Positions 26,943-30,341 of a DNA stretch of 64,000 nt are shown here, piece by piece. Location of the stretch: positions 1-64,000 of the forward strand of contig NZ_ARYL01000009.1 of the NCBI RefSeq assembly GCF_000685295.1, written 5' to 3'. Each line of letters starts with the position of its first letter. Within the stretch, counting starts at the first letter, position 1. The notes under the pieces were generated by a model that worked only from the letters and a program-made list of their open reading frames with translations, had not been told where the DNA came from and ran no database searches. This stretch comes from Hyphomonas oceanitis SCH89 (GTDB lineage Bacteria; Pseudomonadota; Alphaproteobacteria; Caulobacterales; Hyphomonadaceae). A program made the translations under genes and the position numbers.

Positions 26943-27596
26943 CTAGAGGGCGCGGGAGGCGCCTTCCAGCAGCGGCGCGAGCGGGTGGGCGATAGCAAGG
27001 CGTTCCTGCGAGCCGTCCTTGCCCATCCGCAGCAGGACCTGACCATCGCCGGTATCCAAGGGCGCAATCAGTTCGCCGCCCTTGCCAAGCTGCTGCAACA
27101 GGACATCCGGCACCTCGGACACCGCGCCTGTCAGGAGAATCCGGTCATAGGGGCCCCGTTCCGGCCAGCCGGCGAGACCGTCGCCATGCCGCACGGCCAC
27201 ATTGCCAAGCCCAAGGTCCAGCATCCGTCTGCGGGCCGCATCGCAGAGGCGGCGATAACGGTCCATGGCAAACACATCCGCCCCGAGCTGGGCCGCCAGA
27301 GCCGCCGTATAGCCACTGCCCATGCCGATCAGCAGGATTCGGGCTTCCCGCATCTGGCGTATTTGCAAAGCCTGCAGCAATTGGCCGGTAACCGCCGGAC
27401 GCGGAATGACCTGTCCGCAGGGAATCGGCAGGATACAGTCTTCAAACGCGAGTTTGTCGATGCCCGGCGTATCAACAAAGGCGCCTCGGTCGATCGTCTC
27501 CATCGCCTTCAGCACGCCGTCGTCGGTGATGCCCTCCTGGCGCAGGTGCAACACAAGGCGCGCGGCCCGGAAGGGATCGGCGATCAGCTCTGCCAT
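26943..27596 (-). CDS. pcm: protein-L-isoaspartate O-methyltransferase
   Basis: A 217-residue SAM-dependent methyltransferase. It has [19 protein letters not shown], the [17 protein letters not shown] block at the place of the canonical GQTISQP loop, and SAM motif [14 protein letters not shown] (88-100). It methylates L-isoaspartyl residues in aged proteins so they can be repaired. The substrate loop is less conserved than usual (PCGQVIPRP). It overlaps surE by 13 bp, the classic surE-pcm pairing. Confidence 0.9.
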
Positions 27597-28345
27597 GTCT
27601 CGCGGAGTTTCAGGAGATAGGCCTCGTGCGTGAGGTCTACGTGCAGGGGCGAAACGGAGACATAGCCGTCGTAGATGGCACGCAGGTCGGTTCCGGCGTC
27701 GGGTTTGGACAGCTTCCCCTTGTGACCGATCCAGTAATAGTCATTGCCGCGCAGGTCTTCGCGGCGGTCGGTATGGATGATGCTTTCATCCCGGAAACCC
27801 TGACGGGTGATCTGGATGCCGGCCACGTCTTCAGGCTCGCGGTCGGGGAAGTTGACGTTGATGACAACATCCTTCGGCCAGGGCCGCGCCAGAAGCGGCT
27901 TCAGCGTTTTGGCGCCCCATGCCCGCGCCGTATCCCAAGGCAGCGAGCCACGCTCACGGAAGCTCTGCGCCTGGCTGAGCGCGATGGAGGGAATCCCGAG
28001 CTGCATGCCGAACATGGCGGCGGCAATCGTGCCGGAAAAGCTCGTATCCTCGGCAATGTTCTGGCCGCGATTGACGCCGGAAAGCACTAGGTGCGGCGCA
28101 TCAGGCATCAGGTCCTGCGTCGCCAGCAGCACGCAGTCGGACGGCGTGCCGACAATCGCCCACGCCTTGGCGCCAACCTTGCGCACGCGCACGGGCTGGG
28201 TCAGCGAAATGGCGCGGCCCTTGCCGGACTGTTCCTCTTCCGGCGCGGCGATCCAGATATCGTCGCTCAGCTCCTTGGCGATGTCTTCGAGCACGGCAAG
28301 GCCGGGCGCGTTAATGCCGTCATCATTTGTGAGGAGAATTCTCAT
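27584..28345 (-). CDS. surE: 5'/3'-nucleotidase SurE
   Basis: A 253-residue protein beginning [17 protein letters not shown]8-D9 are the metal-binding pair of Sur[23 protein letters not shown] and [23 protein letters not shown] complete the active-site pattern. SurE removes phosphate from nucleoside monophosphates and is linked to stress survival. It is coupled to pcm. In related genomes surE normally follows serS directly; here a repeat-bounded DUF559 gene lies between them. Confidence 0.96.
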
Positions 28346-28369
28346 AGGGCCACCTCAAAGCGCAGGCTT

Positions 28370-28415
28370 ATCCTCACCCGCTTGCGGGGGAGGTGCCCGA
28401 AGGGCGGAGGGGGGA
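28370..28415 (+). repeat. palindromic repeat copy A (left end of the DUF559 unit)
   Basis: A 46-bp element made of hairpin CCTCACCCG-CTTG-CGGGGGAGG, a second small hairpin GCCCGAAGGGC, and a tail GGAGGGGGGAA. It is the same element as copies B and C with a few base changes; A and B face each other across the DUF559 gene. No T-run follows, so it is not a simple terminator. Confidence 0.85.
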
Positions 28416-28423
28416 ATGCGGAC

Positions 28424-28789
28424 TCAGTCACCATGCACCTGTCTCAATTGATAGAGAATGCCGTCGAGGACGCCATCAAGATTGTCATAGATGTCCGTAT
28501 TCCAGACGCGGTGCACACGCCACCCCTGCCCCCCGAGAAAAACCGTGCGTTTTTGGTCTCTTGTGATCTCGTCATCAGTGGAATGTGTCTCACCATCAAC
28601 TTCAATTATCAGGCGCCGCTCGACGCAGGCAAAGTCAGCAATGAAGGGGCCGACAGGCACCTGCCGCCGAAACTTGAAGCCAACAAGATTCTGACGACGC
28701 AGGTTTTGCCAGAGGATGACCTCGGCGCGTGTCATCGTGCGGCGCAGCGCGCGGGCACGTTTGACGGTTTGCTTCTCGGCTTCGCGCAC
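28424..28789 (-). CDS. DUF559 (Vsr/PD-(D/E)xK-like) endonuclease-domain protein
   Basis: A 121-residue protein with GTG start at 28789. The DUF559 core reads TRAEVILWQNLRR, GFKFRRQVPVGPFIADFAC, then LIIEVDGETH and a C-terminal GWRVHRVWN. D52, E63 and D65 match the PD-(D/E)xK-type acidic cluster of the very-short-patch-repair-like fold, so nuclease activity is plausible. Its ribosome binding site (GGAGG) is the tail of repeat copy B just upstream, and its 3' end is 9 bp from repeat A. It interrupts the otherwise conserved serS-surE neighbourhood. Biological role unknown; a selfish or repeat-linked function is inferred from context. Confidence 0.85.
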   Translation of the reverse strand: MREAEKQTVKRARALRRTMTRAEVILWQNLRRQNLVGFKFRRQVPVGPFIADFACVERRLIIEVDGETHSTDDEITRDQKRTVFLGGQGWRVHRVWNTDIYDNLDGVLDGILYQLRQVHGD

Positions 28790-28790
28790 G

Positions 28791-28836
28791 TTCCCCCCTC
28801 CGCCCTACGGGCACCTCCCCCGTAAACGGGGGAGGA
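28791..28836 (-). repeat. palindromic repeat copy B (right end of the DUF559 unit)
   Basis: The inverted copy of repeat A: hairpin CCTCCCCCG-TTTA-CGGGGGAGG, then GCCCGTAGGGC, then GGAGGGGGGAA, reading on the minus strand into the DUF559 gene. The terminal GGAGG stands 8 to 9 nt before the GTG start and acts as its Shine-Dalgarno. Confidence 0.85.
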
Positions 28837-28860
28837 TCGCGCCACCGCAGCACCGCCCTT

Positions 28861-28912
28861 ATCCTCCCCCGTTTACGGGGGAGGTGGCCCCGAAGGAGTC
28901 GGAGGGGGGAAC
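28861..28912 (+). repeat. palindromic repeat copy C (serS side)
   Basis: A third copy in the orientation of A: hairpin CCTCCCCCG-TTTA-CGGGGGAGG, then TGGCCCCGAAGGAGTC in place of the short hairpin, then GGAGGGGGGAA. It lies 24 bp from copy B and ends 1 bp before the serS stop codon. Copies B and C together form an inverted pair. Confidence 0.85.
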
Positions 28913-28913
28913 T

Positions 28914-30341
28914 CTATGACGCTGCGATCACCTCCAGCCCGCCCATGTAGGGCCGCAGCACGTCCGGCACCGTGATGGAGCCGTCTTCGTTCTGGTAGTT
29001 CTCGATCACGGCGACCAGCGTGCGGCCGACGGCGAGGCCGGAACCGTTGAGCGTGTGGACGAATTCAGGCTTCGCGCCGGCTTCCTTGCGGAAGCGCGCA
29101 TCCATGCGGCGGGCCTGGAAGTCGCCGCAATAGGAGCACGAGCTGATCTCGCGATAGGTGTTCTGGCTGGGGATCCAGACTTCGAGGTCATAGGTCTTGC
29201 GGGCCCCTGCCCCCATGTCGCCGGTGCAGAGCAGCATGCGGCGGAACGGCAGGTTCAGGCGTTTGAGCACTTCCTCGGCACAGCCGGTCATGCGTTCCAG
29301 CTCTGCGAGGCCCGCCTCTTCATTCTCCACGATGGAAACGAGTTCGACCTTGTTGAACTGGTGCAGCCGGATCATGCCCTTCGTATCGCGCCCCGCGCTG
29401 CCCGCTTCTGAGCGGAAGCACGGCGTATGCGCGGTGAAGCGGAGCGGGAGACGGGAGGCGTCGAGGATTTGCTCGCGCACGAGGTTCGTGAGCGGCACTT
29501 CGGCGGTGGGGATGAGCCAACGGACATCACGATTGTTCAGCTGTTCGGTAATGTCGCTCAATACTTCGCTCACGCTGGCAACATCATTCAAGTTGCCGAC
29601 TTTCAGCTTAATTTCTGCGCCTCTTTTCCAAGTATCAATATCCACAACGCTAGAAGCGTTGAATAAATCCTCTTTGAACTTCGGCAATTGCCCAGTTCCA
29701 AAAAGCGCCTCGTCCCGCACCAACAGTGGCGGGCTTACTTCCTCATAGCCATGCTCCTCCGTCTGCAGGTCGAGCATGAATGCGGCCAGCGCACGTTCCA
29801 TGCGGGCCAGCTTGCCGCGCAACGCGACGAAGCGGGCGCCGCTCATTTTCACGGCGCTGTCGAAATCCATCTGCGAGAAGCCGAGATCGCTCTTCAGCGC
29901 CTCGCCAAGATCGGCGTGGTCTTTAGGGTTGTTGATGCGTTTCGGTTCGCCCCAGCGATGCTGTTCTTCATTGCCCTCTTCATCACTGCCGAGCGGCACC
30001 TCGGCCAGCGGCAAGTTGGGCAAGCCCATCAGCAAGTCGTCGAGCAGCGCCTTGGCGGCGGCTTCCTGTTCGCCGGCCGTTTCAATCGTGCTCTTGGCCT
30101 CCGCAACCAGTGCCATCAGGCGGGCGGCTTCGTCCTCATTCTTCTCGGCCTTGGCGCGGCCGATGAGCTTGGAATTCTCGTTGCGGACCTTCTCGGCATC
30201 CTGCTTGTCGGTCACCGCTTTGCGCAGCGCCGAGTCGTGCCGGAGGATTTCGTCGACCGAGTCGCCAAGGCCCGGCTTGCGGCGGTTCCAGGCGGCGCGG
30301 AAAGCGTCCGGATTGTCTCGGATGGCGCGGATATCGAACAT
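28914..30341 (-). CDS. serS: serine--tRNA ligase, with an extra internal segment
   Basis: A 475-residue class II synthetase. The N-terminal coiled-coil arm spans about 28-105. Core motifs are [21 protein letters not shown] (motif 1 region), [29 protein letters not shown] (motif 2) and [19 protein letters not shown] (motif 3). It charges tRNA-Ser (and tRNA-Sec where present). Residues 228-274, between EDLF and WLIPTAEV, are about 34 residues longer than in E. coli SerS. That stretch (about 29520-29700) falls to roughly 45% GC while flanks are near 60-65%. The frame and all catalytic motifs are intact. Confidence 0.96.

Follow-up and report, generated by a model that had tools for sequence, protein, structure and literature searches.

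The DUF559 nuclease gene described here, together with the two terminal inverted copies of its cognate palindrome, is probably a minimal mobile (or recently mobile) element of ~470 bp that would be copied in via host repair. It lies in a window of 64,000 nucleotides from Hyphomonas oceanitis SCH89 (contig NZ_ARYL01000009.1, positions 1 to 64,000), which is the whole stretch of DNA that was analyzed. That enzyme and cognate palindromes form one element is strongly supported; that mobility is driven by the DUF559 enzyme is inferred, and is the best reading. This interpretation is built on the unit and its generality, the match between palindrome class and protein clade, the covariation of mirror arms, gene-less copies, and presence or absence at the same sites. 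The original prediction, made from the letters of the window, had proposed that the nuclease and the repeat family form one selfish or domesticated mobile system, and the proposal has passed those of its tests that are open to computation.

The features of the unit are listed in Table 1. As originally predicted, the nuclease gene sits between inverted palindrome copies: arms A and B are 91% complementary over 47 nt with a separation of 374 nt, and the core palindrome has three matches in the window versus 0.09 expected from shuffles. The third match, copy C, had been overlooked, and forms with copy B a close inverted pair with the heads facing. Copy A consists of a head hairpin (CCTCACCCG-CGGGGGAGG), a small hairpin (GCCCGAAGGGC), and a purine tail (GGAGGGGGG). 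Upon single-stranded folding, A, B, and C each form the head hairpin, to which A and B add a small second hairpin; shuffled sequences fold as well or better in 7/200 (A), 6/200 (B), and 3/200 (C) cases. The end of copy B on the gene strand (GGAGGGGGGAAC) is immediately 5' of the GTG start. Since the minus strand reads GGAGG-GGGGAAC-GTG in the tail of copy B, GGAGG ends 7 nt before the start, rather than the 8-9 nt first proposed, and it is a probable Shine-Dalgarno for the DUF559 gene, a function inferred from position and sequence. A repeat-borne Shine-Dalgarno fits here, but in only 48 of the 128 flanked units with a usable start codon is that codon ≤15 nt from the arm. The neighboring serS frame is conserved in 42/42 Hyphomonas genomes. 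Within it, a segment of ~140 bp (29517-29654) finds almost no match in congeners, the main matches stopping near 29516 and four of them resuming near 29655; this is apparently an in-frame insertion or a replaced segment of seryl-tRNA synthetase.

Table 1. Coordinates of the DUF559 unit, its palindromes, and its neighbors in the window
Feature	Position	Strand	Remarks
Whole unit, 468 bp: DUF559 gene between inverted repeats A and B	28370..28837	-	
Palindrome copy A, class I	28370..28416	+	Tail toward gene
DUF559 (PF04480) gene, 121 aa, GTG start, Vsr/homing-endonuclease fold	28424..28789	-	
Palindrome copy B, class I	28791..28837	-	Tail toward gene, adjoins GTG start
GGAGG within copy B tail, probable Shine-Dalgarno	28797..28801	-	From sequence; function inferred
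Palindrome copy C, class I, between B and serS	28858..28912	+	Repeat families D1-D3, I2, I4
Approximate span missing from empty surE-serS junctions of congeners	28346..28925	.	By eye, against L085-L091
surE, left neighbor	27584..28345	-	Open frame; name from the original prediction, consistent with translation only
serS, right neighbor	28914..30341	-	Open frame; name from the original prediction, consistent with translation only

The protein encoded by the unit matches PF04480 over profile positions 3-108 of 109 (E = 2.5e-35, 121.1 bits versus a gathering cut-off of 20.6), which Pfam lists as a family of unknown function. Six acidic or His residues (E23, D52, E63, D65, H69, and D78) are invariant in 47 aligned sequences, from which we infer that the protein is likely to be an active nuclease. 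A structure model (pLDDT 88) submitted to Foldseek retrieved NGO0050 (E = 2.7e-8), I-Bth0305I (3r3p, 9.2e-5), and Vsr (5e-3), and a profile search of PDB sequences also found NGO0050 and I-Bth0305I (E = 8.5e-5); PDB profile matches weaker than PvuRts1I were taken as chance. The test for an EDxHD-type fold is thus met by model, Foldseek, and profile search, the closest solved enzymes being NGO0050 and then the homing endonuclease I-Bth0305I, which is the best match with a known function. The protein scores 25.9 bits against the Vsr mismatch endonuclease family TIGR00632 (cut-off 97.85), and PF03852 is absent from its Pfam matches. Its closest named relative is from Hyphomonas atlantica. In Caulobacter, the DUF559 protein VsrA is described as SOS-induced and responsible for the damage response in cells without cytosine methylase (PMC12907096); the stem "palindrom" is absent from the main text of that paper. 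On Klebsiella plasmids (H154-H182), the large anti-phage protein Hhe has a related nuclease domain toward its end, and one fold possibly serves both defense (Hhe) and mobility (DUF559). Klebsiella plasmid matches were rejected as solo DUF559 genes, the annotated ones among the 40 listed of 279 records being mostly the large protein Hhe/DUF4011.

A check proposed with the original prediction was whether DUF559 genes lie between inverted copies more often than other genes do. We assessed this by aligning the left flank of each gene, including 70-100 nt of the gene itself, with the reverse complement of the right flank, and by counting scores of at least 15. This procedure replaced a control with exact ORF borders, which was weak (score ≥13 in 4/19 DUF559 ORFs and 3/299 others), since the ORFs of DUF559 genes extend into the palindromic arms. 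Within Hyphomonas, where 33 of 43 DUF559 rows were used (ten partial or weak ones, ≤33.2 bits, were left out), the threshold was reached by 21/30 DUF559 loci versus 0/261 other genes from the same stretches. In a sample spread over the class (69 of 85 non-own rows, all ≥52 bits, used and 16 left out, some of them as broken), it was reached by 50/67 DUF559 loci versus 3/211 other genes. Genuine Vsr genes from the same sample, which served as a control because they resemble DUF559 genes in size and fold, were never flanked (0/28). Further samples comprised the phylum (16/28 newly fetched DUF559 loci) and named genomes, including Cyanobacteria, Chloroflexi, and Bacteroidetes, in which 49/63 loci and 8/9 later ones scored, i.e. 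57/72 with full flanks. The flank, mirror, and combined tests used 63 of the 78 named loci, the other 15 being the nine later ones with full flanks and six that are cut. Once proteins ≥90% identical had been removed and the last nine named loci left out, the combined set contained 130 flanked loci out of 181 (71.8%) versus 4/359 control genes (1.1%; 3/144 among the small ones), a far higher rate than for other genes; 51/181 DUF559 loci remain unflanked at this score. Shuffled flanks reached the threshold in 0.17% of cases, and flank pairs drawn from two different loci in 10.8%. Shared ancestry is not taken into account in the P values. The median length over 136 flanked units is 477 bp, and the two arms of one locus can be identical (53/53 at L148 and 47/47 at L176) whereas arms differ between genomes. 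Bacteroidota DUF559 genes (L299 in Xanthomarina, L300 in Bizionia, L295 and L296 in Prevotella) are accompanied by different inverted repeats, e.g. GTCCCCTCAAGGGGAC, which suggests that systems of this kind also include other families of repeats.

The genome from which the window comes (G000, 4.28 Mb in 188 contigs) has five DUF559 genes, all of which adjoin class I, II, or III palindromes and four of which lie between matching inverted arms, the exception being L033 (score 9). Class I is defined by CCTCCCCCG..CGGGGGAGG plus tail, class II by CCCTCACCTCCC..CCTCTCCC, and class III by CCCCTCTCCC..GGGAGAGGGG plus tail. The class I pattern has 15 matches in G000 at ≤1 mismatch; several of them are close inverted pairs without a gene. 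Many palindromes in G000 lie away from the five DUF559 genes. Across Hyphomonas, DUF559 is present in 22/42 genomes, and four palindrome classes coexist, several of them inside one genome. The classes were set by patterns written after inspection of the flanks and without a protein tree. When the class labels, including "none" as an additional fifth label, are mapped onto a tree of the 33 DUF559 proteins, they require six changes versus a mean of 18.5 for shuffled labels, none of 200 shuffles being as low. These 33 loci occupy 20 distinct sites, and when one locus is kept per site, 17 have a class; the nearest DUF559 protein at another site is of the same class in 17/17 (permuted mean 4.35; 0/20,000 permutations). 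Arm and protein similarity are weakly correlated over 124 flanked loci (r = 0.21), a value that is above all 2000 permutations (maximum 0.145). Palindromes are also more numerous in genomes with a DUF559 gene of the same class than in those without (median 12.5 versus 1 for class I and 10 versus 2 for class III). Cross-class counts are raised too, and genome-wide counts alone therefore show no class specificity. Moreover, a gene and its arms merely travelling together would produce the class-clade match without the enzyme acting on the repeat. G040, a Hyphomonas genome without DUF559, contains 15 class I palindromes.

Two observations in Hyphomonas concern where units and palindromes have settled. 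One site carries DUF559 genes of two clades in different species (L045 and L064 versus L051 and L052), which suggests replacement or repeated targeting of one site. In L013 (G000:C2:1-2968), a helicase-like frame (frame 3, nt 3-2444) of 814 codons is uninterrupted by the three class I palindromes that it contains; they are translated in frame and are inserted in coding sequence. Insertion of palindromes in coding sequence is likewise known from the Rickettsia palindromic elements.

Polymorphic sites among congeners, another expectation of the original prediction, were found at serS-surE and at further loci. The serS-surE junction was viewed in G000 and 29 congeners, 18 of which are empty, nine filled, and two unreadable (L095 and L099). 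Other comparisons revealed G002 as a tenth filled congener, hence 18/28 readable congeners are empty; the other 11 of the 42 genomes are outside this count. At the empty junctions, serS and surE touch or nearly so, with a GTGA stop-start overlap in L085. The filled junctions differ in content: DUF559 units in G000, G018, and G002, class II pairs in G039, G003, and G008, class III pairs in G016, G022, and G023, a single class I copy in G021, and a remnant in G007. On the serS tree (in which the rows of G013 and G033, with branch lengths of about 5, were ignored), genomes with the same junction content are never sisters. For each of the three contents the tree requires three changes, possibly a single gain plus two losses. 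The serS gene next to the G000 unit is 95% identical to that of an empty congener versus 81-82% to those of the two filled ones, and G000 and G018 have a similar spacing between copies B and C; the unit may therefore have been inserted long ago and lost cleanly many times. Occupation of one site in distant species and its vacancy in close ones fits homing-like reinvasion, but also an old insertion followed by repeated clean loss.

Elsewhere in Hyphomonas, the L033 unit is absent at the same place in G004, G029 (which has other sequence there), G014, and G030, and the L034 unit is absent in G004, G029, G006, and G030. The gene-less pairs L004, L010, L030, and L017 are absent in the relatives compared (G004 only for L017); at L010, G029 has an extra block. 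At L031, G006 retains only a shortened remnant, and L035 is shared with G004. Alignments were uninformative for L031 (G004 and G030), L005, L006, L001, and L035 (G029). Outside the genus, Sinorhizobium meliloti Ak57 and Sinorhizobium sp. K101 have a DUF559 gene between repeat pairs, to which Ak57 adds ISRm16; the two genes that border this block are 8 nt apart in Shinella sp. PSBB067, the only relative compared, which is a clean empty allele. In Sphingomonas parapaucimobilis, a DUF559 unit lies between sufB and sufC. Target duplications were looked for by eye: no clear or consistent one was found at serS-surE or at the further polymorphic loci, with CTCAT at both ends in L092 and L113 and roughly 20 bp at L010 as candidates.

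The DUF559 arms share with the BoxC/PIT/TM repeats a pyrimidine arm, a loop, a purine arm, a spacer, and a mirror purine tail, an order described, together with a consensus for Escherichia coli, in a 2015 study of TM motifs (PMC4666352). In 281 flanks, the purine tail resembles the mirror of its own purine arm (0.812) more than the unmirrored arm (0.656) or the arms of other loci (0.581), and for DUF559 flanks as a whole the mirror tail covaries with the purine arm between loci. As judged from these letters, and with no data on triplex formation in DNA, the DUF559 arms follow the intrastrand triplex grammar of BoxC/PIT/TM. The class I palindromes of the window differ from BoxC in that their second loop is longer and contains a hairpin, and they do not match the E. 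coli consensus, whereas the arms of some other DUF559 units are that consensus exactly, e.g. both arms at L157 (G151:C1:28555-28875). The repeats have been known from E. coli since the 1990s and are present in over 260 genomes; the same study reports that genetic-mobility activities were never found near the motif (PMC4666352). Among 299 Pseudomonadota genomes, the exact E. coli consensus occurs in 56 and not in G000; with DUF559 counted at E ≤ 1e-10, both are present in 41 genomes, the motif alone in 15, DUF559 alone in 39, and neither in 204 (odds ratio 14.3). Three motif-rich genomes have no DUF559 match among those listed (G355 with 121 copies, G275 with 36, and G412 with 21), and may represent relics, incomplete assemblies, or another partner. 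No link between DUF559 and palindromes or BoxC was found in the literature, within those sources that were accessible (subscription journals were outside the scope).

E. coli itself has a DUF559 protein, YcjD, encoded in the order sapF-ycjD-fabI (L222, strain K-12), and it was beside fabI that BoxC was first described. The ycjD-region query is covered at ≥80% in 3364 of 5426 complete E. coli genomes (about 62%). BoxC-type copies are found downstream of ycjD and a near-perfect hairpin just upstream, with no BoxC-type copy in the 420 nt upstream of the gene. Since the BoxC-type copies are only downstream, YcjD can be no more than a unit that has decayed or been domesticated. The sapF-fabI interval was rejected as a clean empty site, because eefRABCD replaces ycjD in other lineages.

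Several known systems resemble the DUF559 units in part. RAYT/TnpA-REP systems (REPtrons) also combine a dispersed small palindrome, inverted pairs, and one associated gene for a DNA-cutting enzyme. In REPtrons, the palindrome class follows the enzyme lineage, a feature that DUF559 meets (17/17 sites; six changes versus 18.5). The REPtron enzyme is HUH/Y1, however, and the DUF559 enzyme PD-(D/E)XK and Vsr-like; the DUF559 units differ further in their triplex mirror grammar and in a gene that usually lies between two inverted copies (~470 bp). Membership in RAYT-REP was rejected, because its two defining features, an HUH/Y1 gene and a GTAG/CGTC tag, are not met. Y1_Tnp (PF01797) has no match in G000 and any match at all in only 9/42 Hyphomonas genomes, four of them over the cut-off, and among 297 flank hairpins GTAG occurs in 3 and CGTC in 9, against 2 and 8 for random 10-mers. 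The parallel drawn in the original prediction thus holds in function only: DUF559 and its palindromes are like RAYT-REP, with an unrelated enzyme. EDxHD/Vsr-like homing endonucleases such as I-Bth0305I are alike in fold and in having empty and filled alleles at one site, but no intron or intein is seen here, and cognate palindromes flank the gene. MITEs and small insertion sequences share terminal inverted repeats, gene-less copies, and polymorphic sites; the sole gene of the DUF559 unit, in contrast, encodes a nuclease and not a DDE transposase, and no consistent target duplication was found. Vsr and Caulobacter VsrA belong to the same fold superfamily, and VsrA has a DUF559 domain, but genuine Vsr genes are without such flanks. 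Also considered were the Caulobacter CIR repeats (about 110 bp, GANTC; PMC2229807), which were rejected since their structure differs.

Four other explanations have to be weighed. The palindromes could be independent dispersed repeats of the BoxC/PIT type that cause genomes to break and recombine, with DUF559 genes landing or surviving in them as mere passengers. BoxC/TM occurs without DUF559 in 15/56 genomes, TM loci are reported to be unstable (PMC4666352), and many G000 palindromes are distant from the five DUF559 genes, all of which would agree with passengers. Such genes would not be expected, however, to have the same class at their nearest relative from another site in 17/17 cases despite several classes per genome, or arms that can be identical within a locus (L148 and L176) yet differ between genomes, and other genes are rarely so flanked (4/359); we regard this explanation as unlikely. 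We are slightly more skeptical of a Vsr-like host enzyme for repair or hairpin processing, with regulatory palindromes (attenuation, mRNA stability, Shine-Dalgarno) and spread mostly by ordinary recombination. Such a role is suggested by the link of Caulobacter VsrA to cytosine methylation and SOS (PMC12907096), by the GGAGG that the window tail supplies, and by the 48/128 units with a start ≤15 nt from the arm. It is difficult to reconcile with a patchy distribution (22/42 genomes) and several diverged copies per genome, with units missing at the same place in close relatives, with gene-less copies of the same palindromes, and with genuine Vsr genes that are unflanked (0/28).

The remaining two have little to recommend them. 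If the palindromes were REPs moved in trans by a RAYT (HUH/Y1), DUF559 would be irrelevant; the layout is indeed REPtron-like, with inverted pairs and gene-less REPIN-like copies, but the lack of a Y1_Tnp match in G000 and tags at background largely refute this for G000, and we consider it very improbable. Chance similarity of arms in G-rich intergenic DNA is hardly credible at all: the arms are of low complexity and G-rich, and flank pairs from two loci do reach the threshold in 10.8% of cases, but the rates for own pairs (71.8%), shuffled flanks (0.17%), and other genes (1.1%) refute it.

For the mobile element that we favor, a mechanism can be proposed in which recognition, cleavage, repair-based copying, and mobilization in trans are all inferred. 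In single-stranded or supercoiled DNA, the nuclease would recognize the palindrome in its folded state (hairpin or triplex), and would break DNA at the palindrome or at an empty target. Host break repair would then copy the element in, in a manner like homing and not like DDE cut-and-paste. Gene-less inverted pairs and single palindromes may be non-autonomous copies mobilized in trans, in the same way as MITEs and REPINs.

The recurrence of the same pairing in distantly related bacteria points to a type of small mobile element that has not been described before. We lean, by a little, toward the wider view that DUF559 proteins are the missing mobility enzymes of BoxC/PIT/TM, i.e. that these are phylum-spanning selfish elements made of a ~360-nt gene and two triplex palindromes, which spread by structure-guided cleavage and repair, leave gene-less offspring, and have been domesticated in places (perhaps as E. 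coli YcjD and Caulobacter VsrA). If true, this would place beside RAYT-REP a second nuclease-palindrome partnership, one of independent origin and based on a PD-(D/E)XK enzyme, and would account for a widespread source of intergenic hairpins and of insertion polymorphism. It may explain a repeat that has been known for decades and, by tying BoxC/PIT/TM to a nuclease family, makes the question testable in laboratory bacteria, with ycjD of E. coli K-12 to hand.
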